A DNA stretch of 64,000 nucleotides from an uncultured Caproiciproducens sp. Lineage in GTDB: Bacteria; Bacillota; Clostridia; Oscillospirales; Acutalibacteraceae. The DNA is taken from contig NZ_OY761810.1 in assembly GCF_963664915.1 (NCBI RefSeq), forward strand, positions 2,060,661 through 2,124,660, read 5' to 3'. Below, in pieces: positions 36,483 to 59,966 of the stretch. Under the pieces are notes generated by a model. That model saw only the letters and a program-made list of their open reading frames with translations. It was not told the DNA's origin and made no database searches. The first letter of the stretch is position 1. Each line of letters starts with the position of its first letter. A program made the translations under genes and the position numbers.

Positions 36483-38369
36483 ATGAATTTTACATCTAAG
36501 AAGTCTGTCCTAATTTCTGCAATCGCAATCCTTCTTCTTCAGCTAGCCGGGTTTCTGTTCAATTTCCACGGGCTGACCGGTTTTCTCTATTTTGCAATCG
36601 GGAGCATTCTGATTCTGTTTGCTGCCGATGCCCTGTTTGGAAAGTCTGACGGCAGTTCACAGCCCGCCGCTCAAAAATCATTTGGGAAGGAAGAACTGGG
36701 CGAGCAGCTGTTTCAAGTTGCGGAAACCATGGGATTTGACTCCCAGCAACTGATTTGGCTTTCAAAAGACAATATGAAAACTTTTGAAAAACTTGCGAAA
36801 ATTTCTTATGAGATTGAGAAGTTCAGCGAACAGAATGCAGCCAGTTCGGAAGAAATTAATGCCAGCATTAATGAACTTGCCGGAGCGTGCAACAATTTGA
36901 ATTCCGGCGTCATAAAAATTGAAGATCATTCAAAAACCTCAATAGAGATGCTGGATAAAAATGAGCAGACCATCAGAAGCATCGGCAGCTTTATCCTTGA
37001 TCTTACGTCGGTTATTAAAGTTGCCTCCGACAGTAATATCGAGCTTCAGCAGTCCTCCAACAAGATTAATGAAATTGTCGATTATATCAGAAAAATTTCA
37101 AGCCAGACCAATCTTCTGGCTTTAAATGCCGCAATAGAAGCCGCGAGGGCGGGGGAAGCCGGCAGGGGCTTTTCTGTTGTCGCCGGCGAAATCAGAAGAC
37201 TTGCCGTACAGACGGATGATGCGATTTCCGTCATTGAAGGCGTGGTAAAAAATATTGTCGATAAGATACAAACGTCCAACACGGCTATGACCGAAATCGG
37301 CGATAAAATGAAAAATGTTGACGGCATTGTAAGCGAGTCTTCACAGATTATTCAGGAAATCAGCTCCATTCTGAAGGATGTTCAGAATGCCATATCGGGA
37401 TTGACCGATGAATCGCTTACGCAAAAAAATACGGCGGCAGAAATTGAAAAGGCTGTAGAAAATGTCGCAACAGCGGTACAGAAAACCCATGATGTCTCTT
37501 GCTCTGCCATACAAATGGTGGATGTGCAGCAAAAGAAAAATGAAACGATTCTTTCCTTCTGCAACAAAATCGGTGAGACGGCCGAAATGCTGCAAAAAGA
37601 CGCAATGTATTTTAAAAAGGACGATGAAATTATATTTGGCGTGAATCCTTTTGTCGAGCCTGACCGCATCAGAAAGACCTATGTGCCGATTCTGGAGCGT
37701 GTATGCTCCAGCGTTGGGCTGAAATGCCGCACCCTGATTGTTAGGAGTTATGATGCGCTGAGTGAAAGTGTAGATAAGGGAATTATTGATATCGGATGGT
37801 TTTCACCGTTTGCGTATGTCAGCGCGCATGAAATATGCGGAGCGAATGTTCTGGTAACGCCGAAGGTTCAGGGACGCTGTTCTTATAATGGATATATTGT
37901 TGCCCGCAAGGACGGCAGAGTCCATTCCATCAATGACTTAAAAGGTAAATCATTTGCATATGTTGATGAGAAAAGCGCGTCAGGCTATTTGTATGCCCGG
38001 GACATGATGAAACAGAATCATATGGATCCCGACTCCATGTTTGAAAAGGTTGTGTTTTTAGGCAACCATAACAATGTAGTCAACGCTGTCCTTGCGGGAG
38101 AGGTGGACGCGGGCGCAACTTATGACGAGGTTTACAATCAGGCGCGCACCGACGGACTTTTTACAGATCAGCTGATTATTGTTGCCCGTACGGAAGAAAT
38201 ACCGAAGGATGCGCTGGCTGCCAGAAAAGATATGTCTGCGGCGCTCATGGAAAAACTGAGCGCGGCCTTTGTGGAGTTCAATGATTACAAGGGAATTGAT
38301 ACAACTGTTCAAGGTTTTGTTAAAAATGAAGATAAGGCGTACGATATTATCAGACGGCTTAATCATTAA
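36483..38369 (+). CDS. Methyl-accepting chemotaxis protein with C-terminal PhnD-like binding domain
   Basis: The 628-residue protein begins with two closely spaced membrane helices (~8-27 and ~33-50), leaving almost no outside loop. The MCP signalling domain (~100-370) has the conserved hairpin tip ISSQTNLLALNAAIEAARAG and continues to FSVVAGEIRRLA. From ~380 to 625 follows a phosphate/phosphonate-binding (PhnD, PBP type 2) domain: FGVNPFVEPDRIR, SPFAYVSAHE, LKGKSFAYVDEKSASGY, and AGATYDEVYN. By topology this domain would lie in the cytoplasm, so it may sense an internal ligand. The family roles are clear but the ligand is unknown. It is monocistronic behind a perfect promoter. Confidence 0.9.
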   Translation: MNFTSKKSVLISAIAILLLQLAGFLFNFHGLTGFLYFAIGSILILFAADALFGKSDGSSQPAAQKSFGKEELGEQLFQVAETMGFDSQQLIWLSKDNMKTFEKLAKISYEIEKFSEQNAASSEEINASINELAGACNNLNSGVIKIEDHSKTSIEMLDKNEQTIRSIGSFILDLTSVIKVASDSNIELQQSSNKINEIVDYIRKISSQTNLLALNAAIEAARAGEAGRGFSVVAGEIRRLAVQTDDAISVIEGVVKNIVDKIQTSNTAMTEIGDKMKNVDGIVSESSQIIQEISSILKDVQNAISGLTDESLTQKNTAAEIEKAVENVATAVQKTHDVSCSAIQMVDVQQKKNETILSFCNKIGETAEMLQKDAMYFKKDDEIIFGVNPFVEPDRIRKTYVPILERVCSSVGLKCRTLIVRSYDALSESVDKGIIDIGWFSPFAYVSAHEICGANVLVTPKVQGRCSYNGYIVARKDGRVHSINDLKGKSFAYVDEKSASGYLYARDMMKQNHMDPDSMFEKVVFLGNHNNVVNAVLAGEVDAGATYDEVYNQARTDGLFTDQLIIVARTEEIPKDALAARKDMSAALMEKLSAAFVEFNDYKGIDTTVQGFVKNEDKAYDIIRRLNH

Positions 38370-47951: not shown

Positions 47952-50033
47952 ATGAAGAAAAATATCGTTGTTATTGGTGCGGGTTATTCAGGATTGCTGA
48001 CCGCGAAAAAATTAGCAAAAAAACTCAAAAAATTTGATGATATCCATATAACAATCATTGATAAAAATCCGTTTCATACCATGTTAACCGAGCTTCATGA
48101 GGTAGCCGCGAACCGAGTGGATGAAGACAGTATCAAGATCAGCCTCAATCGGGTTTTTGCCGGAAGAAAAGTAAACGTTAAGCTCGATACGGTTCAATCC
48201 ATTGATTTTGAACAGAAGCTTGTTGCCGGCGCCAGTGAAAATTACAACTATGATTATCTTGTGCTTGCAGCCGGATCCAAGCCCACTTTTTTCGGCGTTA
48301 AGGGAGCAGAAGAGTTTGCCCATACGCTGTGGTCGTACGACGATGCGGTGAGGCTGAAGGATCATATTCATGATTTTTTCAGAAAAGCGGCGCGTGAAAC
48401 CGACGAAGAAGTTAAGAAAAGATTGCTGACTTTTTATGTGGTGGGTGCAGGTTTTACCGGTATTGAAATGGTGGGCGAGCTTGCCGAGTATGTACCGATT
48501 CTTTGTGACAAATATGAAATAGACCGTTCTTTGGTTACAATCTACGATGTGGATGTTCTGCCGCGCATTGTGCCTATTTTGCCGGACAAGCTTTCCGACA
48601 AAATTGAAAGACGCCTTGCCAAGATGGGTGTGGGATTAAAACTCAACGCAGGCGTGGTCAGCATAGGAGAAGACTTTATTGAAATTAAAATCGGCGATAC
48701 GATATCCCGTGAGACCGCCGGAACAGTCATCTGGACGGCGGGAATCGAGAGCGCTGAAATAGCGGGTGAAGCGGCAAAAGTGCTGCAGTCGGCACGGCGC
48801 GGAAGAATTCAGACCGATGCCTATCTTCGTTCAGTTGACAATGAAAACGTTTATGTCGTTGGAGACGATATCCTGTATACGCCGGAAGGCGAAAAGATAC
48901 CGGTTCCCCAGTTGGTTGAAAACTGTGAACAGAGTTCCGGGGTTGCTGCGAAGAACATTGTCACTGCGATTACCGGCACAGGGGAAATGGAGGCATACAA
49001 ACCGAAATTCCACGGCGTTATGGTTTGCGTGGGCGGACGTTACGGTGTTGCCCATGTCGGACTTCCGAACCATATGTTTAGCCTTCCGTCTTTCCTTGCC
49101 ATGTTTGCGAAGCATTTTATTAACATTATTTATTTTATTCAGGTACTTGGCTGGAACAAGATTTTCAGTTACGCAAAACATGAATTCTTTACGGTGCGTC
49201 ATGACAGAAGTTTTGTAGGCGGCCATTTTTCCAATAAAACCCCAAGTTTCCTGTTGGTTGCCCTTAGAATCTGGCTGGGTGCGGTCTGGCTGTATGAAGG
49301 CGTTATGAAGGTCGTTGAGGGCTGGTTTAATTCACCGCAGCTGACCGGCTTCTTTGGCGGAGCGAACACATGGTATAATACCATTCTGCATGGTGTGACA
49401 GGTGCTGCAGCGGCGGCACCGGATGCAACCAGCGGTGCAACCACCACCGCGGCTACAGGTGCTGCGACGGTTGTAAACGCGGTGGCCGGGGCGGCTTCAG
49501 TAGCTGTGGACGCCATTTCTTCCGCGACAACGGGAGCCGCCGATGCGGCGGGTCAGGCAGCGGGAGCTGCAGTTGCCGCCGTTGGGCAGGTTTTGATGAA
49601 TTTCAGCTTCCTTGGCTGGTTCCAGGTGATTCTTGTGAGCGGAAAAGAGCTGGCAAAATCCACTCTAAACGATATGGCTTTCAAGCTTGACGTTCCGGTA
49701 ATGAACTGGTTTGTCAATACCTTTATACTTCCGAACCAGACAGTACAGCTTATTATGCAGATATTTATCGTTACCGCAGAAATCTTAATCGGCCTGTCAT
49801 TGATCGGCGGTCTGTTTACAACGCTGTCGTCGGGCCTTTCCCTGATCCTTCAGGTGATGTTCGTATGCACCACAGGACTGTACCTCAACACCTTCTGGAT
49901 GATTTTCGCGGGTATTGCTGTTTTGATCGGAGGCGGAAGAGTCTTTGGTCTGGACTATTATGTGATGCCGTTTTTGAAGAAGCACTGGAAAAATGTAAAA
50001 TTTGTAAGAAAGTTATATATTTACAATGATTAA
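47952..50033 (+). CDS. ndh2: Type II NADH dehydrogenase fused to a DoxX-like membrane domain, with possible flavinylation motifs
   Basis: The 693-residue protein starts with a two-dinucleotide-fold NADH:quinone oxidoreductase (~1-430): FAD motif GAGYSGLLTAKKLA, NADH motif VVGAGFTGIEMVGELA, and NVYVVGDD. A C-terminal DoxX-like domain of about four helices follows. It matches the layout of Listeria Ndh2, which feeds electrons to a quinone for extracellular transfer. Between helices 1 and 2 is an Ala-rich loop (~470-550). By topology it is outside the membrane, and it holds D491-A-T-S-G-A-T497 and D520-A-I-S-S-A-T526. Both fit the ApbE flavinylation pattern Dxx[ST][GS]AT. The overlap with the next gene is 8 bases. 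Confidence 0.9.
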   Translation: MKKNIVVIGAGYSGLLTAKKLAKKLKKFDDIHITIIDKNPFHTMLTELHEVAANRVDEDSIKISLNRVFAGRKVNVKLDTVQSIDFEQKLVAGASENYNYDYLVLAAGSKPTFFGVKGAEEFAHTLWSYDDAVRLKDHIHDFFRKAARETDEEVKKRLLTFYVVGAGFTGIEMVGELAEYVPILCDKYEIDRSLVTIYDVDVLPRIVPILPDKLSDKIERRLAKMGVGLKLNAGVVSIGEDFIEIKIGDTISRETAGTVIWTAGIESAEIAGEAAKVLQSARRGRIQTDAYLRSVDNENVYVVGDDILYTPEGEKIPVPQLVENCEQSSGVAAKNIVTAITGTGEMEAYKPKFHGVMVCVGGRYGVAHVGLPNHMFSLPSFLAMFAKHFINIIYFIQVLGWNKIFSYAKHEFFTVRHDRSFVGGHFSNKTPSFLLVALRIWLGAVWLYEGVMKVVEGWFNSPQLTGFFGGANTWYNTILHGVTGAAAAAPDATSGATTTAATGAATVVNAVAGAASVAVDAISSATTGAADAAGQAAGAAVAAVGQVLMNFSFLGWFQVILVSGKELAKSTLNDMAFKLDVPVMNWFVNTFILPNQTVQLIMQIFIVTAEILIGLSLIGGLFTTLSSGLSLILQVMFVCTTGLYLNTFWMIFAGIAVLIGGGRVFGLDYYVMPFLKKHWKNVKFVRKLYIYND

Positions 50034-52127: not shown

Positions 52128-53168
52128 ATGAAAAAAACATTAGCAGTAATTATGGCCGCGGCAATTTCAGTATTCAGTTTTGCCGGATGCGGTTCAACTA
52201 CCGCTGCAAGCTCTGCAGCCGCAGCATCATCCGCCGCTGCTTCCGGTACAGTAAAAACCGGGTTGGGCGTGGTATCGTCTGTTGCGTCTTCTACTGCAGT
52301 AAAAGATGGGAAAGGAACGGCTGTTGCGGATGTGACTGCTGTTGCCGTTACAGTTGGCTCAGACGGTAAAATTTTGAAATGTTCTATCGACGGTATCCGT
52401 GCGGACGTCGAGTTTTCCGACAAGGGAAAGCTTTTAACACCTGCGACCACTGTTTTCAAGAGCAAAAATGAACTTGGTGAAGCATACGGCGTGAAAAAGG
52501 TTTCTAAGATTGGCAAAGAATGGAACGAGCAGGCCGACGCATTTGCAAAGTACGTTGTTGGTAAGACAGCGGACGAAGTAAAGGGCATTGCTGTCAGCAG
52601 CGAAGGAAAGGCAACAGCTTCCGAGCTGACTGCTTCCGTTACGATTCATGTGGGGGATTTCATTACTGCTGTTCAAAAAGCAGTCAACAATGCACAGGAT
52701 ATCGGCGCAAAAGCGGATGATAAACTTGGACTGGGCATTGAATCTTCCGGTGAACAATCCGCAGATGCCGGCGAAAAAGACGGTGTTGCGCAGGTTTACT
52801 CTTATTTCACAGCATCTACGTTCAGCGCGGACGGCAAAATCACAAGCAGTGTGATTGATGCCACACAGAACAAGGTCACCTTTGACAAGACAGGCAAAAT
52901 TACATCCGATGTGAAAGCAGAGCAGAAGTCAAAGGACGAACTTGGCGATGCTTACGGCATGAAGAAAGCTTCTAAGATTGGCAAAGAATGGAACGAAGAA
53001 GCCGCTGCATTTGCCAAATATGTCGTTGGTAAGACTGTTGCTGAGGTAAAAGGAATTGCCATTAACAGTGAAGGCGAATCTACGGATAAAGAACTGACCG
53101 CTTCCGTGACAATCTCCATCAGCGATTTTATGAAGATCCTTGACAAAGCGGCAACCAACGCGAAATAA
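52128..53168 (+). CDS. Duplicated-domain lipoprotein of the electron-transfer locus
   Basis: The 346-residue protein has a lipoprotein signal (FSFAGCGST) and a Ser/Ala linker. Two tandem ~140-residue repeats follow. Each holds K-[NK]-ELG-[ED]-AYG-[VM]-KK, SKIGKEWNE, AFAKYVVGKT-[AV]-[DA]-EVKGIA and ELTASVTI. It occupies the position of Listeria PplA, the lipoprotein modified with FMN by ApbE. However, I see no canonical Dxx[ST]GAT motif. The site where it would fall reads T-A-S-V-T in both repeats. It may be a related electron carrier or a non-flavinylated partner. Confidence 0.75.
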   Translation: MKKTLAVIMAAAISVFSFAGCGSTTAASSAAAASSAAASGTVKTGLGVVSSVASSTAVKDGKGTAVADVTAVAVTVGSDGKILKCSIDGIRADVEFSDKGKLLTPATTVFKSKNELGEAYGVKKVSKIGKEWNEQADAFAKYVVGKTADEVKGIAVSSEGKATASELTASVTIHVGDFITAVQKAVNNAQDIGAKADDKLGLGIESSGEQSADAGEKDGVAQVYSYFTASTFSADGKITSSVIDATQNKVTFDKTGKITSDVKAEQKSKDELGDAYGMKKASKIGKEWNEEAAAFAKYVVGKTVAEVKGIAINSEGESTDKELTASVTISISDFMKILDKAATNAK

Positions 53169-53239: not shown

Positions 53240-54286
53240 TTGGTTAAAAAACTGATTGCGATGATTCTTGCTTTGACGCTGATTTTTCAGCTTCCGGCCT
53301 GTAATACAAATAAAAAAACGCGTTATGAAGCTCAATTTTTACAGCTTTTTGATACAATGACCGAAATTGTGGCTTATACTGAAACCAAAGAAGAGTTTAC
53401 AAACCTTTCCAATTTGATTTATAATAATCTAAAGGTTTATCACGAGCTTTATGATATTTATGATGATTACCCCGGAATCAACAATATCAAAACAATCAAT
53501 GACAATGCAGGGAAGAAACCGGTCAAGGTAGACAAAAAGATTATAGATCTGCTGCTCTTTGCCAAAAATGAAAGCAGAGATGAGAAGCCTGTCTTCAATA
53601 TTGCGCTGGGTTCCGTTTTAAAAATATGGCATCAATACAGAGAAGCGGGAATTGATGATCCGGAAAGTGCTGCCCTGCCGCCCATGGCCGACCTGAAAGC
53701 GGCCATGCAGCATACGGATATCAATAAAGTTATCATTGATGAAAAAGCTTCCACAGTATATCTTGAGGATCCGAAAATGAGCCTTGATGTGGGCGCTGCT
53801 GCCAAAGGCTACGCCACGGAGCAGGTTGCCCAAATCGCAATAGCAAAAGGATACAAATCTGCCTTGCTCAGCGTCGGCGGCAATGTGCGGGCGATCGGCG
53901 ACAAGGGTGTGAACAGCGAACAGTGGAATGTAGGAATTCAAAACCCGGATTCGGAAAGCAATAAAAAATCTCTTTGCACAGTGAATCTGACCAATCAATC
54001 CGTAGTGACCAGCGGAATTTATGAACGGTATTATACCGTTGACGGGAAGAACTATCACCATATTATTGATCCGAAAACACTGATGCCGTCCACTTATTTT
54101 AAAGCTGTTACCATTATCACCCAAAATTCCGGAATGGCGGACGCGCTTTCCACCATTGTTTTCAACATGCCTTACGAACAGGGGCTGGCGTATATCAGAA
54201 CCCTTCCGGATACGCAAGCGCTTTGGGTATTACCGGACAATTCAATTAAATACAGCGACCATTTTCAGAAATACATCAAGAAGTAA
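53240..54286 (+). CDS. apbE: FAD:protein FMN transferase (ApbE), lipoprotein form
   Basis: The start is TTG 53240 after GAGGTGG. The 348-residue protein has a lipobox (LIFQLPACNT), placing it outside the membrane. The ApbE core motifs are present: MSLDVGAAAKGYATE, SVGGNVRAIG, TSGIYERYY, HHIIDPKTLMP and the magnesium-site region NSGMADALSTIVFN. It moves FMN from FAD onto a Ser/Thr in a Dxx[ST]GAT-type site of an exported protein. In this locus the NADH dehydrogenase loop (T497, T526) is the only visible match. Confidence 0.94.
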   Translation: MVKKLIAMILALTLIFQLPACNTNKKTRYEAQFLQLFDTMTEIVAYTETKEEFTNLSNLIYNNLKVYHELYDIYDDYPGINNIKTINDNAGKKPVKVDKKIIDLLLFAKNESRDEKPVFNIALGSVLKIWHQYREAGIDDPESAALPPMADLKAAMQHTDINKVIIDEKASTVYLEDPKMSLDVGAAAKGYATEQVAQIAIAKGYKSALLSVGGNVRAIGDKGVNSEQWNVGIQNPDSESNKKSLCTVNLTNQSVVTSGIYERYYTVDGKNYHHIIDPKTLMPSTYFKAVTIITQNSGMADALSTIVFNMPYEQGLAYIRTLPDTQALWVLPDNSIKYSDHFQKYIKK

Positions 54287-54310
54287 GATTCATGAATGAG
54301 GAATGCGCAA

Positions 54311-56011
54311 ATGGCATATAAAAACCTTCAAAGTTTTATTAAGAAACTGGAAACATGCGGAGAGTTAAAAACGATCGATGCACCTGTGTCACCGGAGCTG
54401 GAAATTACGGAGATAACCGACCGTGTTTCCAAAGCCTATGGCCCGGCACTGCTGTTCCGGAATGTAGACGGCTCAAAATATCCTGTCCTGATGAACGCTC
54501 TGGGCAGCTACTCCAGAATGAGTATGGGTCTGGGCGTGGAAAAGCTGGATGATGTTGCTGCCGAAATTCAAAAATATTTGAATGTGGCCAGTGATTTGTC
54601 TTTTTCCGGACTTGCGAAAAGCATCCCCCTTTTGTTCCCTCTGCTCAGCGTATTCCCCCGGCGGAGCAAATTCAGGGGGGAATGCCAGCAGGTAATTGAA
54701 AGGTTCGTGGATTTATTCACGCTGCCCGTGCTGAAATGCTGGCCGCAGGATGCGGGGCAGTTTATTACGCTTCCCATTGTTTTTACGAAGGATCTAAAAA
54801 CAAAAAGGCAGAATGCCGGAATGTACCGTTTGCAGATTCTTGACAGCACCAGTACTGCGATGCACTGGCATAAGCACAAGGATGGCTCCGAAATCTACAG
54901 GAGCTATGCGGAACAAAAGCTGAAAATGCCTGTTTCGGTCGCGCTGGGGTGCGACCCTGCCATTATCTATGCGGCTACTGCGCCTCTGCCGAAAATGCTG
55001 GATGAAATGATGCTGGCCGGATGGCTGCGCAAATCGAGAGTGAAAATGGTCAAGTGCATTACAAATGATATTTATGTTCCCGCAAGTGCGGAATTTGTGC
55101 TGGAAGGCTATGTTGATCCGACGGAAGAACTTGTGTTGGAAGGCCCTTTCGGCGATCATACGGGCTACTATTCCCTTGCCGACTATTATCCCAGATTTCA
55201 TGTGACCTGTATTACGCATAAAAGAAATGCGGTCTATCCGGCGACGGTCGTGGGAAAGCCCCCGATGGAAGACTGCTACATGGCAAAAGCGACAGAGCGC
55301 ATTTTTCTGCCGCTACTGCGCATGCAGATTCCGGAGCTGGTGGATTTGAATTTGCCGCTGGAAGGTGTATTTCACAACTGCGCGATTCTTTCTGTCAAAA
55401 ATAAATATCCAGGTTGTGCGCGCAAGGTTATGAATGCGGTTTGGGGCATGGGGCAGATGATGTACACGAAATTGATTATTACTGTGGATGAATCTGTGAA
55501 TGTGCAGAACTTAGCGGAAGTTCGGGATGCGGTGCTCAAGAATGTCTACGGAACACAAAGTCTGCTGTTTTCGGAAGGCCCGCTGGACGCACTGGACCAT
55601 TCTTCGAATAAAGCGCTGTATGGAAGCAGATTGGGTGTTGATGCAACAGACACCGCAAACGGATTGGATGACGAAATTACAAATACTTTTAAAATACTGC
55701 GCATTCATAAGGATCGTCCGTGGAAGGGCAGGGAAATCGTTGAAAATTATCTTTGGAAGAACCCGGATAAATTTGTGATTGTTGTGGATGAAGATGTGGA
55801 TACAAGGAACCTTTCAACCGTAATGTGGAAGGTGTTCAATAATATTGATGCAAAAAGGGACATTGCGGTCATCGACTTTAAAATTGGGATAGACGCTACT
55901 AAAAAATGGAAGCAGGAAGGCTTGACGCGGGATTGGCCGGATGATATTGTCATGACGAATGCTATGAAGAAACAGGTCGATAAAAGGTGGAACGAATATG
56001 GGATTGACTAA
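54311..56011 (+). CDS. ubiD: UbiD-family prenylated-FMN-dependent decarboxylase
   Basis: ATG 54311 has GAGGAA at good distance and begins MAYKNLQSFIKKLE, the usual UbiD start. An ATG at 54296 lacks such a site. The 566-residue protein has the family motifs YRLQILDSTSTAMHWHKHKDGS and LEGPFGDHTGYYS. These enzymes decarboxylate (prenylated) hydroxybenzoate or naphthoate in ubiquinone or futalosine-type menaquinone synthesis, using cofactor made by UbiX. It overlaps ubiA by 14 bases. Confidence 0.93.
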   Translation: MAYKNLQSFIKKLETCGELKTIDAPVSPELEITEITDRVSKAYGPALLFRNVDGSKYPVLMNALGSYSRMSMGLGVEKLDDVAAEIQKYLNVASDLSFSGLAKSIPLLFPLLSVFPRRSKFRGECQQVIERFVDLFTLPVLKCWPQDAGQFITLPIVFTKDLKTKRQNAGMYRLQILDSTSTAMHWHKHKDGSEIYRSYAEQKLKMPVSVALGCDPAIIYAATAPLPKMLDEMMLAGWLRKSRVKMVKCITNDIYVPASAEFVLEGYVDPTEELVLEGPFGDHTGYYSLADYYPRFHVTCITHKRNAVYPATVVGKPPMEDCYMAKATERIFLPLLRMQIPELVDLNLPLEGVFHNCAILSVKNKYPGCARKVMNAVWGMGQMMYTKLIITVDESVNVQNLAEVRDAVLKNVYGTQSLLFSEGPLDALDHSSNKALYGSRLGVDATDTANGLDDEITNTFKILRIHKDRPWKGREIVENYLWKNPDKFVIVVDEDVDTRNLSTVMWKVFNNIDAKRDIAVIDFKIGIDATKKWKQEGLTRDWPDDIVMTNAMKKQVDKRWNEYGID

Positions 56012-56867
56012 AATTTTCATTAAGATTCAATCATACGGCAAGTTGGTCATGTTCTCGCATACAATTTTTTCTTTCAGCTTTGCTTTGGTGTCCATGGTGC
56101 TGGCTGCAAAAGGGCTTCCGCGTATCTCCACTGTCATCTGGATTATAGTCTGCTTTATGGGCGCGCGTACCGGCGCGAATGCAATTAACCGTGTGATCGA
56201 CGCGAAGATCGACGCGAAAAATCCGCGTACAGCCGGCCGTCAGATTCCAAAAGGGGAAATGCAAGAGAGTGAAGTCGTTGTTTTTACGGCAATTTGTTTT
56301 CTTATCATGCTGTTTGGGGCGTACCGGCTGAACTGGGTCTGCTTTGCCCTGTCGCCGGTCGCGCTGTTTCTGCTGATTATCTATTCCTACTGCAAGCGGT
56401 TCACTTATTTATGCCATTTGATTTTGGGCGTCACCTGCGCCTGCGCGCCGGTCGGCGCATGGCTTGCTGTTACAGGAAAGTTTGCGCTTGTTCCGCTCTT
56501 CATGGGCGCCGCCAATACATTGTGGGTTGCCGGGTTTGATATTATCTACGGTTCGCAGGATTATGACTTTGACAAAGCGAACGGTCTGCACTCCATTCCG
56601 GTGAAATTCGGTGTTAAAAACGCTTTGCTCATCGCCATGATGTTTCATATGATTACCTTGATTTGCATGATCATGATCGGGATTCTTGTGCCTCAGTTCG
56701 GGGTGATTTATTATCTGGGGTTGGCTGTCATCGCCGCCCTGTTTGTTGCGGAGTACCGCATGGTATCTCCCGCAAACCTGACCAATGTCAATATAGCGTC
56801 CTACAGCGTAAATCAGCTTGTCAGCCTTGTTCTGCTGGCGTTTGGTTTGCTGGATGCTTTTATTTAG
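55998..56867 (+). CDS. ubiA: UbiA-family aromatic prenyltransferase (MqnP/UbiA-like)
   Basis: The 289-residue protein has about nine helices. The two aspartate motifs are NAINRVIDAKIDAKNPRTAGR and DIIYGSQDYDFDKANGLHSIP. It attaches a polyprenyl tail to an aromatic ring in the membrane. The first motif resembles MqnP of the futalosine pathway and UbiA rather than MenA. Tail donor would come from the polyprenyl synthase at 50026. It lies between ubiD and ubiX. Confidence 0.92.
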   Translation: MGLTKIFIKIQSYGKLVMFSHTIFSFSFALVSMVLAAKGLPRISTVIWIIVCFMGARTGANAINRVIDAKIDAKNPRTAGRQIPKGEMQESEVVVFTAICFLIMLFGAYRLNWVCFALSPVALFLLIIYSYCKRFTYLCHLILGVTCACAPVGAWLAVTGKFALVPLFMGAANTLWVAGFDIIYGSQDYDFDKANGLHSIPVKFGVKNALLIAMMFHMITLICMIMIGILVPQFGVIYYLGLAVIAALFVAEYRMVSPANLTNVNIASYSVNQLVSLVLLAFGLLDAFI

Positions 56868-56880
56868 GGAAAGGCATAAA

Positions 56881-57468
56881 ATGAAAAAAATAATCGTAGG
56901 AATCACAGGAGCGAGCGGAAGCGCGTATTTTTTGCGCGTGATGGAAGTTTTATCTCGGCAGGAACTGGAAATTCACCTGATTGCTTCCGAGCATGGCCGA
57001 AAAGTTCTGGCTTATGAAACCGGAGTGAATTTGGAAGATCAGACGCAGCTTTGGAATAAAAACAGAGCCGATATTATTTTGGAAGACAACGAGAACCTGT
57101 TTTCGCCTGTCGCAAGCGGATCTTACCGCTGTGATGCTATGGTGATTCTTCCGTGTTCCATGTCCACAGTGGCTGAAATCGCAGGAGGCATCACCAAAAC
57201 GCTCCTGACACGGGCTGCCGACGTCATGATCAAAGAAAAGCGCAGACTGGTGCTGGTTCCAAGGGAGACGCCTTTGTCCACTGTTCATTTAAAAAGAATG
57301 CTTGAACTGTCACAGCTTGGCGTAACCATTTTACCCGCTATGCCGGGATTTTACGGTCATCCTGAAACGGTCGATGAGATCATCAGCTTTGTTGCGGGCA
57401 AGGTTTTGGACAGTCTTGAAATAGAAAATGATTGCTATCGAAGGTGGGAAGGAACACATGAAAAATAG
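56881..57468 (+). CDS. ubiX: Flavin prenyltransferase UbiX
   Basis: ATG 56881 gives 195 residues, the UbiX size. A longer frame from 56818 runs into the ubiA gene. It begins with the FMN-binding IVGITGASGSAYFLRV and carries PCSMSTVAEIAGGITKTLLTRAADVMIKE and VPRETPLSTVHLKRM. It makes prenylated FMN, the cofactor that UbiD needs. The UbiD-UbiA-UbiX order gives prenylation plus decarboxylation of a quinone precursor. Confidence 0.95.
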   Translation: MKKIIVGITGASGSAYFLRVMEVLSRQELEIHLIASEHGRKVLAYETGVNLEDQTQLWNKNRADIILEDNENLFSPVASGSYRCDAMVILPCSMSTVAEIAGGITKTLLTRAADVMIKEKRRLVLVPRETPLSTVHLKRMLELSQLGVTILPAMPGFYGHPETVDEIISFVAGKVLDSLEIENDCYRRWEGTHEK

Positions 57469-58414
57469 AATAATTCTTGCTTTGTTTTTTTGCTTATTGA
57501 TTTTTTCATCAGGCTGCGCGCCGCAGAGTGCTGTGAGCAGCTCGGCGGGCGGTTCGGAAGAACCTATTATCCGAATTGGAATGATGTCTTCTTCGGATGT
57601 AATTCCGTTCGTTCTGATTAATGAAAACGGGCTTGCCGACAAATATAAGTTCCTGTTGGATCTGGAAGTGTTTGCTTCTGCCAAGGACAGGGACGCTGCT
57701 TTGCAGGCCGGGGAACTGGATGGCGTGCTGACGGATTATATTGGCGTGTGCATGTACCAGAATGCCGGATTCGACGTAAAGATTACCGGAATTACCGACG
57801 GGGACTATATACTGGTTGCAGGGAAAAATACGGGCATCAAAAATATCAGCCAGATTAAAGGGAAGAGCATTGCAATTTCCGAGAAAACGCTGATCGAATA
57901 TACGCTGGAAGACATTTTAACCAATAATAAAATGACCGATAATGATGTGGTGAAAGAAGTAGTCCCCAAAATTCCAGACCGTCTTGAACTGCTTCGAAAC
58001 AACAAAATTGACCTTGGGCTGCTGCCGGAGCCTTTTGCAACCCTTGCACTGAATGACGGTGCCGTCTCTCTGGGCAGCGCGAATCAGTTCGGGCTGTACC
58101 CGGCGGTTTCCGCGTTCTCACAGACTGCGCTGGACAGCAAGTCCGATGCGATTCATAATCTGTATAAAGCCTATAATGAAGCCGTTGATTACATGAATCA
58201 CACAGATATCCGCAAATATGAGAAAACAGTGATTAAGGCCGTGGGATATCCCGAAGAGATGGTCGGCAAAATAACGGTGAAACAGTTCAGAACCAGCAAG
58301 CTTCCCACAAAACAGGAAGTCGAAGCCGCCATTCAATGGGCGAGCAAAAAAGGCCTCTGTAAGCCGACGCTGCAATACGGCCAGATGGTGTATGATGTTT
58401 ATTCCAGATCATAA
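57458..58414 (+). CDS. ABC importer substrate-binding lipoprotein (NMT1/SsuA-like)
   Basis: ATG 57458 has GGAAGG upstream and gives 318 residues. An ATG at 57428 would extend further into ubiX. A lipoprotein signal (LIFSSGCAPQ) precedes an NMT1/SsuA-type binding domain: IGMMSSSDVIPFVLINENGL, AGELDGVLTDYIG, and LLPEPFATLALND. Relatives bind nitrate, sulfonates, thiamine precursors and aromatic acids. Its position after the quinone genes suggests uptake of a ring precursor or of a flavin/thiamine-type cofactor, which is inference only. Confidence 0.85.
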   Translation: MKNRIILALFFCLLIFSSGCAPQSAVSSSAGGSEEPIIRIGMMSSSDVIPFVLINENGLADKYKFLLDLEVFASAKDRDAALQAGELDGVLTDYIGVCMYQNAGFDVKITGITDGDYILVAGKNTGIKNISQIKGKSIAISEKTLIEYTLEDILTNNKMTDNDVVKEVVPKIPDRLELLRNNKIDLGLLPEPFATLALNDGAVSLGSANQFGLYPAVSAFSQTALDSKSDAIHNLYKAYNEAVDYMNHTDIRKYEKTVIKAVGYPEEMVGKITVKQFRTSKLPTKQEVEAAIQWASKKGLCKPTLQYGQMVYDVYSRS

Positions 58415-58426
58415 CGGCAGAATCCC

Positions 58427-59230
58427 ATGGAGAACAAAATGCTTGTAATAGATCATTTATCGATCAGCTATAAAACGAAAAAGGGGAGAATCCCCGTCAT
58501 TGATGAACTCTCCCTGCAAATTGAACACGGGGAGGTTCTTGCGGTTTTGGGCCCTTCCGGCTGCGGCAAGTCAACGCTGATCAATGCTTTGGCGGGAATG
58601 CTTCCCATCGGCAGCGGCACGGTGGACTACACAAAAGAGAATTTCAAACATACTCTGAATCCTAAAACGCATAAAATCGGAGTGATTCCCCAAAACTGCG
58701 GGCTGCTGCCATGGAAAACAGTCAGGGAAAACTGCCTTCTTCCGCTGAAGCTCCGCGGGGAACCGGACACTGAGGAACGCAGGCAGGAAATAGCCGGTAT
58801 TTATGAGGCTTTGGATGTTTCGCAGCTGCTTCAAAGATATCCTGCGCAGCTGAGCGGCGGGCAGGTTCAGCGCGCGGCGCTCGCAAGGGCGTTTATTTTT
58901 CATCCGGACTTGCTGCTGATGGATGAACCCTTTTCCGCTTTAGACGCCATTACCCGTCAGGACGCGCGGGAACTGTTCCTGAAAATATGGGATCGAAACC
59001 GGCCCACCACGATTCTGGTTACTCACAGCATTGAAGAAGCGCTGTATCTGGGCAATACCGTTGTTGTGATGGGGATTCATCACGGAGATATTCAATATCG
59101 CATGGAGAACCCCTATTTCGGGAAATCCGACCCGATATCTGTTGACTACCTTGTCGCAAAACATATCCTGCATGAGAAATTAAAACCGGATGGCGAAAGG
59201 CGGGATTCTTTTGAGCAAACTGTTGAATAA
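58427..59230 (+). CDS. ABC importer ATPase (NitT/TauT type)
   Basis: The 267-residue protein has Walker A GPSGCGKSTLI, signature LSGGQVQRAALARAF, Walker B LLMDEPFSALD and switch VTHSIEEAL. It belongs to the nitrate/sulfonate/taurine-type importer family. It lies 12 bases after the binding protein and overlaps the permease by 41 bases. Confidence 0.94.
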   Translation: MENKMLVIDHLSISYKTKKGRIPVIDELSLQIEHGEVLAVLGPSGCGKSTLINALAGMLPIGSGTVDYTKENFKHTLNPKTHKIGVIPQNCGLLPWKTVRENCLLPLKLRGEPDTEERRQEIAGIYEALDVSQLLQRYPAQLSGGQVQRAALARAFIFHPDLLLMDEPFSALDAITRQDARELFLKIWDRNRPTTILVTHSIEEALYLGNTVVVMGIHHGDIQYRMENPYFGKSDPISVDYLVAKHILHEKLKPDGERRDSFEQTVE

Positions 59231-59966
59231 ATGCTGGATTTTTTTGCAGGGCTTCCTGCTTATAAACGCAATCTGGTTTCTGGCGTTTGTTCTGATGCGC
59301 ACAACCGTGATTCCAAATCCGATTACGATTTATCAAAATTTCGGCACTGCGTTTTCAAACAATATTTTTGCACATATTCTGTTTAGTTTAAGAAGAATCG
59401 GAGCAGGTCTGGCCCTTTCGCTTTTGGTGGGAGTTCCTGTCGGGATTCTGATGGCGTATTCAGAAAGTGCGAATAAAATACTGTATCCACTTATTTATTT
59501 CAGTTATCCGATTCCAAAGACAGCACTTCTGCCGGTTGCTATGATTCTGTGGGGAATGCGGGACGGTTCAAAGGTCGCTATTATTTTTCTGATCATTGTA
59601 TTTCAAGTCATTGTTTCCGCAAGGGACAGCGTGCGCAATATTGACCCCGCAGTGTACCTTGTAACGGTAAGTGCGGGCGCAAGCCATGCACAGATCATCC
59701 GGCATATTACGCTGCCTGCAATTTTGCCTGAACTGCTCACCAGCATCCGGGTTTCGCTCGGTACCGCGGTATCTATCCTTTTTTTTGTGGAGGGATACGG
59801 AACGAAGTATGGCATGGGGTATTATATTCTGGATGCATGGTCGAGAATCGACTATATTGATATGTATATCGGGATTATCGTGATTTCCGTTGTGGGCTTT
59901 GCTTTGTTTGTCGCTATTGATTTACTTTCGGAGCTGCTGTGCAGATGGAACACACCGATCAGATAA
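59190..59966 (+). CDS. ABC importer permease (NitT/TauT type)
   Basis: About 258 residues from ATG 59190, which lacks a clear ribosome site. TTG 59211 (giving a start like LSKLLNKCWIF) is an alternative. There are about six helices, with IPNPITIYQNFGTAFS and the coupling loop VSAGASHAQIIRHITLPAILPELLTSIRVSLGT. It completes the three-gene importer at the end of the redox and quinone operon. A large terminator follows. Confidence 0.9.
   Translation: MAKGGILLSKLLNKCWIFLQGFLLINAIWFLAFVLMRTTVIPNPITIYQNFGTAFSNNIFAHILFSLRRIGAGLALSLLVGVPVGILMAYSESANKILYPLIYFSYPIPKTALLPVAMILWGMRDGSKVAIIFLIIVFQVIVSARDSVRNIDPAVYLVTVSAGASHAQIIRHITLPAILPELLTSIRVSLGTAVSILFFVEGYGTKYGMGYYILDAWSRIDYIDMYIGIIVISVVGFALFVAIDLLSELLCRWNTPIR

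Follow-up and report, generated by a model that had tools for sequence, protein, structure and literature searches.

The fused type II NADH dehydrogenase (Ndh2) encoded in the window, by which we mean the whole 64,000-nucleotide stretch of Caproiciproducens DNA analysed, carries two candidate flavinylation motifs in a loop predicted to lie outside the cell. The motif core recurs throughout our sample of fused Ndh2 proteins, among them those of Listeria and Enterococcus raffinosus, and the feature is thus broader than an earlier sequence-only reading of this DNA had seen. Judged from the sequences, ApbE likely attaches FMN to Ndh2 at one or both motifs. That the tethered FMN acts as an electron relay stands at roughly even chances; in that case, a single protein could connect NADH and the quinone pool with the cell exterior. 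The fused Ndh2 is probably the membrane enzyme that starts electron export in many bacteria.

The Ndh2 gene (47952-50033, plus strand, as for all of its parts below) is an ORF with an ATG start that encodes 693 amino acids and ends in a DoxX/DoxD-like membrane domain. The N-terminal type II NADH dehydrogenase domain is present, Pyr_redox_2 covering residues 4-324 in a Pfam scan, and the AlphaFold2 (AF2) model of the protein (mean pLDDT 74.3) aligns with the bacterial NDH-2 4nwz with a TMt of 0.94 and an rmsd of 2.3 in Foldseek, where the 50 matches listed all fall on the dehydrogenase part. A PDB sequence search gave bacterial NDH-2 enzymes as the nearest solved relatives; among the best 60 of 159 matches, all were confined to the first ~395 profile positions and there was no solved fused Ndh2. 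The closest named genome is Caproiciproducens faecalis (locus L030, 89% identity), and the named Listeria Ndh2 is 40.6% identical over residues 2-454 (tblastn). Fused to the dehydrogenase domain are four long AF2 helices (residues 433-455, 596-619, 623-640, and 645-660) along with shorter ones. Helix 1 of the DoxX-like domain (49248-49316) is preceded by a Lys/Arg-rich stretch and followed by a loop of residues 456-595 (49317-49736), of which 482-544 are predicted to be disordered (pLDDT <50); helices 2-4 (residues 596-660, 49737-49931) come next. The DoxD match of the window protein is weak, at 21.3 bits for a cut-off of 22.7, and reaches 34.5 bits in the relative L173. PF04205 (FMN_bind) is absent from Ndh2 in Pfam searches at E 0.001 for the whole protein and at E 10 for the C-terminal part.

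From the charge distribution, the loop is predicted to lie outside, as the sequence-only reading had proposed. Across 129 relatives, Lys plus Arg amount to 4.2 per 100 residues in the loop, versus 15.8 before helix 1 and 19.7 in the C-terminal tail after helix 4. The NADH site and the two positively charged flanking stretches should all face the cytosol, which makes the loop itself extracytosolic by prediction. It contains the two motifs first noticed there, D491-ATSGA-T497 (DATSGAT, residues 491-497, 49422-49442, predicted acceptor T497) and D520-AISSA-T526 (DAISSAT, residues 520-526, 49509-49529, predicted acceptor T526). Both had been assigned to the ApbE pattern. The assignment holds for site 1, an exact instance of the literature consensus Dxx[ST]GA[ST] (PMC12052999), and fails under the strict consensus for site 2, where Ser replaces Gly. 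According to the available text of the same source, the seven-residue motif alone suffices for ApbE, surface loops included; labelling is weaker in loops than at termini; changing Gly to Ala lowers flavinylation to ~50%; and changing Asp to Ala has a minor effect. Since the Gly to Ala change halves labelling, site 1 is the likelier acceptor, and site 2 is perhaps partly filled. In a six-member alignment of residues 480-544, S494, A496, and T497 are the only invariant positions, though several rows have a shorter linker; at site 2, D520 and A525 reach 90% conservation or more among the 33 rows of an alignment of close relatives. The AF2 model shows no flavin pocket, but it leaves the loop unmodelled (block means of 23-32 at residues 481-540) and is thus uninformative about a pocket.

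To follow the motif beyond the window we used 248 Ndh2 ORFs from fetched loci, accepted by bit-score or E-value limits, which gave 234 distinct sequences after removal of 14 identical C-termini and 129 nonredundant loops at 80% identity. These counts cover fused matches with a fetched locus. The homologues were collected by similarity to the window Ndh2, so distant lineages are under-sampled, and the relatives are not independent, the corrections for this being the 129-row set and a 119-row tree only. Scanning genome contigs yielded 80 loci. At the set limits, genome searches found matches in 84 of 391 genomes of the class and in 98 of 398 of the phylum, the latter search including stand-alone NDH-2, and in 21 of 299 genomes of the class of G555, which we take to be Bacilli. 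Two records filed as plasmids, NZ_CP154629.1 and NZ_CP030101.1 (2.6 and 2.9 Mb), resemble entire chromosomes in length.

The strict motif D..[ST][GSA]A[ST] occurs in 156 of the 234 distinct loops, with 250 matches, against a mean of 1.3 and a maximum of 6 for shuffled loops. The core [ST][GSA]A[ST] is found in 194 of 234 loops (shuffled mean 22.1), and a wider core, [STA][GSAN][AS][ST], in 229 (shuffled mean 62.8, which already makes this pattern less telling); the canonical Gly form is restricted to 33. The check asked for by the sequence-only reading, conservation among relatives, thus came out in its favor, the motif being retained in loops of proteins down to ~35% identity. One may still ask whether the loop is a low-complexity spacer in which the repeated DAVSAAT-like units serve a structural or protein-docking purpose and look like the ApbE motif by coincidence. 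Ala, Thr, and Ser do abound in the loop, the model has it disordered, and in some relatives (L063) the tandem units are near-identical down to nearly identical codons, as after recent duplication. We nevertheless regard this explanation as highly improbable, because the strict motif is present in 83 of the 129 nonredundant loops, where composition-preserving shuffles average 0.6, and because it persists where Ala is scarce: among the 71 nonredundant loops with <15% Ala, 55 have the core (shuffled mean 3.3) and 40 the strict motif (shuffled mean 0.17). Outside the loop, the strict motif has no match in 129,537 amino acids of the relatives. On the strength of the shuffles, the zero matches outside the loop, and the low-Ala loops, we reject the idea that the motifs arose by chance in an Ala-rich, low-complexity linker.

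Motif number and spelling vary among the fused relatives. Each motif-bearing loop has between one and seven copies, the maximum being seven tandem DAVTAAT motifs in L207; copies within one protein differ synonymously in L117 and L207 and hardly at all in L063. Distant members have a single motif in a short loop (for example DATSSAS, DAASGAS, or DGASSAS), other relatives retain GDKLVAGAS or GDKLVSGSS, and the class of G555 has loops with DATSGAS, DAASGAS, DAASSAS, and DAVTGAT. Listeria (AATSGAS) and E. raffinosus (QVTTGAS) keep the [ST]GAS core and miss the Asp at -6. The widest core is absent from five of the 234 loops (L065, L163, L164, L169, and L194); of these, L065 reads DGASTAT and DAVSTAT, and three have decayed forms, DAQATAS in L163 and L164 and DAEATAS in L169. 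On a quick tree of 119 rows built with the loop excluded, the strict motif is gained or lost at least 20 times, and the number class (none, one, or several) shifts 36 times, indicating that motif copies come and go while their position persists.

This variation bears on a second alternative, that the loop is a conserved noncovalent site where free FMN, riboflavin, or quinol would bind, at the outward-facing mouth of the DoxX/DoxD bundle, the Ser/Thr being a ligand rather than a covalent acceptor and ApbE serving only PplA and FMN_bind proteins. Several lineages that lack the Asp at -6 and have a Ser acceptor, such as Listeria with AATSGAS and those with GDKLVAGAS, fit such a site, and free flavins participate in electron export by Lactobacillus plantarum (PMC9888254). 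Conservation, however, falls on the positions that define an ApbE motif: Asp at -6, Ser/Thr at -3, Ala at -1, Thr/Ser at 0. Relatives of the window protein also repeat the motif up to seven times, in linkers that the window model shows as disordered, and a folded pocket would have no need of such repetition. We therefore consider noncovalent binding improbable and covalent attachment by ApbE the better reading of the loop.

Covalent attachment calls for an ApbE, and the apbE gene that the sequence-only reading had placed in the same locus is there (53240-54286, PF02424). Of 53 close loci whose downstream sequence extends to 7 kb or more, 52 have apbE and 51 a pplA-like gene; the apbE exception, L064, bears a strict motif, and its 10 kb of downstream sequence contain no apbE. 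In an earlier locus listing, all 59 of 59 ApbE matches were located 3.6-7.0 kb downstream on the same strand. At the genome level, an ApbE match accompanies the fusion in 81 of 84 genomes, versus 205 of 307 genomes that lack the fusion (Fisher p 1.5e-9, a generous value since the genomes are related); the three fusion genomes without an ApbE match are G177 (72% complete), G508 (77%), and G449 (94%). We also scored, by motif class, 80 more distant loci together with their flanks. The fetched flank contained apbE for 22 of 36 strict loci and showed none for the other 14; the gene was further present in 8 of 19 loci having the core without Asp, in 9 of 14 relaxed loci, and in 3 of 4 unclassed duplicates. 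It was seen in none of the seven loci without the core by a narrower pattern, which is weak evidence from few lineages; three of these seven read DAVTNAT (one on a 3.2 kb contig) and three have a decayed form. The decayed loci L163, L164, and L169 have no apbE in the fetched flank and a small FMN_bind match in an adjoining gene. Replacement of the loop motif by such a neighbor is only a guess, because the same kind of neighbor also stands beside some motif-bearing copies, G327 and G231 among them.

The linkage to apbE does not single out Ndh2 as the substrate. An FMN_bind protein is present in 56 of 57 tested genomes, and the remaining genome, G174, has a PplA-like protein, so that ApbE has another likely client in each of the 57; among them we found none in which Ndh2 would be the sole client, a situation that would have favored its flavinylation strongly. 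This speaks for the noncovalent alternative, under which ApbE would serve those clients alone.

In the window, Ndh2 heads a series of plus-strand genes that resembles the Listeria cluster, which contains fmnA, the FMN transferase gene, pplA, eetA, and eetB. A polyprenyl diphosphate synthase (HepT/DmkB-like, PF00348; 50026-51006), of a kind that accompanies Ndh2 in 79 of 80 loci, is followed by a NusG domain II protein that is EetA-like by domain and place (PF07009; 51157-51546) and a Hpre_diP_synt_I membrane protein that is EetB-like on the same grounds (PF07456; 51539-52102). In Listeria, EetB is the ECF-S subunit for FAD export (PMC9973259). Next come a PplA-like lipoprotein with two repeated FMN-bind-type domains (52128-53168) and the ApbE FAD:protein FMN transferase (229 bits, E 9.7e-68), which has an N-terminal lipobox-like LPAC by eye. 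The PplA-like protein has no Pfam match, and Foldseek with its model gave none at E <= 0.001; FMN-bind-type structures rank top for the model in VIA-align, with modest Z. Its predicted acceptors, T172 and T328, lie in ELTASVT. The acceptor motif in the window clade is [DE]L[TAS][AS]SVT, versus EVVSGAT/DTVSGAT in Listeria PplA. If ELTASVT is an ApbE substrate, the enzyme would already take Ser at the Gly position.

Downstream of apbE, genes for a UbiD-family menaquinone biosynthesis decarboxylase (TIGR03701 above cut-off; 54296-56011), a UbiA-like polyprenyltransferase (PF01040, and TIGR01475 above cut-off; 55998-56867), and a UbiX flavin prenyltransferase (NF004685 and TIGR00421 above cut-off; 56818-57468) continue in the same direction. 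This co-directional arrangement (54296-57468) suggests that menaquinone synthesis is tied to electron export. After the quinone genes, an SsuA/NMT1-like binding protein and then an ABC ATPase and permease can be read in 57428-59966; such a binding-protein match occurs in 3 of 80 loci, and a similar set can be read in L245. Elsewhere in the window, 36483-38369 reads as a methyl-accepting chemoreceptor-like protein fused to a periplasmic binding-type domain.

These components can be arranged into a route. The cytosolic NDH-2 domain would oxidize NADH and reduce menaquinone (NADH to FAD to menaquinone), and the fused DoxX/DoxD-like helices would hold the flexible loop at the outer surface of the membrane. 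There, the extracytosolic lipoprotein ApbE, given FAD by the EetB-type exporter, would esterify FMN to T497 and perhaps to T526. The tethered FMN could then take electrons from quinol at the outer face and pass them to the PplA-like lipoprotein, to free flavins, or to an extracellular acceptor.

Physiological work in other species touches on the later steps of this route. In Enterococcus faecalis, Fe(III) reduction requires Ndh3, EetA, and EetB but not PplA, and the route from reduced menaquinone to ferric ion is stated to be unknown (PMC9864754). In L. plantarum, flavin-dependent iron reduction likewise requires Ndh2 and EetA/B and not PplA, DHNA-dependent and electrode reduction point to PplA, and the authors allowed for an uncharacterized extracellular flavinated reductase (PMC9888254). 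Lactococcus is described as lacking pplA, and one Lactococcus strain produced current (PMC8837199); in the available text on Alkalibacterium, apbE and an ndh-2-like gene are reported and pplA was not found (PMC10572741). A flavinylated Ndh2 would fit the results from all four, the loops that we read being those of L. monocytogenes and E. raffinosus. If the FMN of Ndh2 is itself the relay, this could explain why iron reduction in some species depends on FAD export through EetB and not on PplA.

A third alternative accepts the first half of this explanation, with which it overlaps: ApbE modifies Ndh2, but the FMN there is incidental or regulatory and the relay is PplA or another flavinylated protein. 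The pplA-like genes in nearly all close loci agree with this, as do several published results: PplA is needed for electrode reduction by resting L. plantarum (PMC9888254), a pplA deletion in that species impairs ferrihydrite reduction, and iron reduction among lactic acid bacteria is associated with ndh2 and pplA jointly (both PMC8837199). Flavinylated FMN_red proteins, moreover, exist in Lactococcus (PMC11334425). An incidental FMN sits poorly with the strong conservation of the Ndh2 loop motif, and the reports that E. faecalis reduces Fe(III), and L. plantarum performs flavin-dependent iron reduction, without needing PplA count against PplA as the relay, so that we rate this alternative unlikely, though still one to be reckoned with. 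Extending the relay reading to its full breadth is a tentative step that we place short of even chances: throughout the family of fused dehydrogenases, with those of Listeria and Enterococcus among them, Ndh2 would be a flavinylated transmembrane conduit whose own FMN relays electrons from quinol to Fe(III), and in some Clostridia the loop would have grown to several, up to seven, FMN sites.

The predicted Ndh2 flavinylation site is a direct, testable candidate for the step from menaquinol to the outside and could be a missing link of the pathway. If the reading is true, Ndh2 would be a single-chain electron conduit from NADH to the outside and would represent a widespread class of ApbE substrate without an FMN-binding domain. 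A flavin there may have been overlooked so far because the long stretch without Lys or Arg yields a large tryptic peptide: the peptide bearing the site has 112 residues in the window Ndh2 and 60 in Listeria, and among the 194 relatives with the core motif it exceeds 50 residues in 115 and has at most 35 in 45. We found no description of a flavinylated Ndh2 in the open-licence PMC literature searched. The name Ndh2 is not used in the main text of two flavinylation surveys (PMC8238504, PMC11334425), the first of which defines its extracellular electron transfer system by an NADH dehydrogenase with a transmembrane helix.

The closest known system is the FLEET pathway of Listeria and Enterococcus, whose Ndh2 is fused in the same way and has SGAS or TGAS as the core in its loop; as the sequence-only reading stated, Listeria combines this layout with a separate PplA. 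The cluster partners are also shared, pplA, the FMN transferase, eetA and eetB or their domain equivalents, and the polyprenyl synthase being common to both. In the available FLEET descriptions, however, Ndh2 reduces quinone and PplA carries the FMN, and a covalent flavin on Ndh2 is not described. The window protein further differs in having two motifs with Asp and a Thr acceptor, compared with the single Listeria motif, which lacks Asp and has Ser. NqrB, a polytopic membrane protein of the ion-pumping Na+-NQR complex, which is unrelated to single-chain NDH-2, offers a different parallel. It is a membrane-complex subunit with covalent FMN (PMC12052999). RnfG, NqrC, PplA, and multi-flavinylated proteins, as described in the available text, share with Ndh2 a Dxx[ST]GA[ST]-like motif, a position on the extracytosolic side (predicted for Ndh2), and linkage to apbE. 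Unlike these proteins, Ndh2 has no FMN_bind domain by Pfam, and its motif lies in a disordered loop of a multi-helix dehydrogenase. A further parallel is given by the FMN_red proteins of Lactococcus, which belong to another enzyme family, are not membrane dehydrogenases, and were demonstrated experimentally to be flavinylated on an unstructured C-terminal extension with one or two motifs (PMC11334425); there too, as in Ndh2, the motifs are attached to a flavoprotein that also binds flavin noncovalently.
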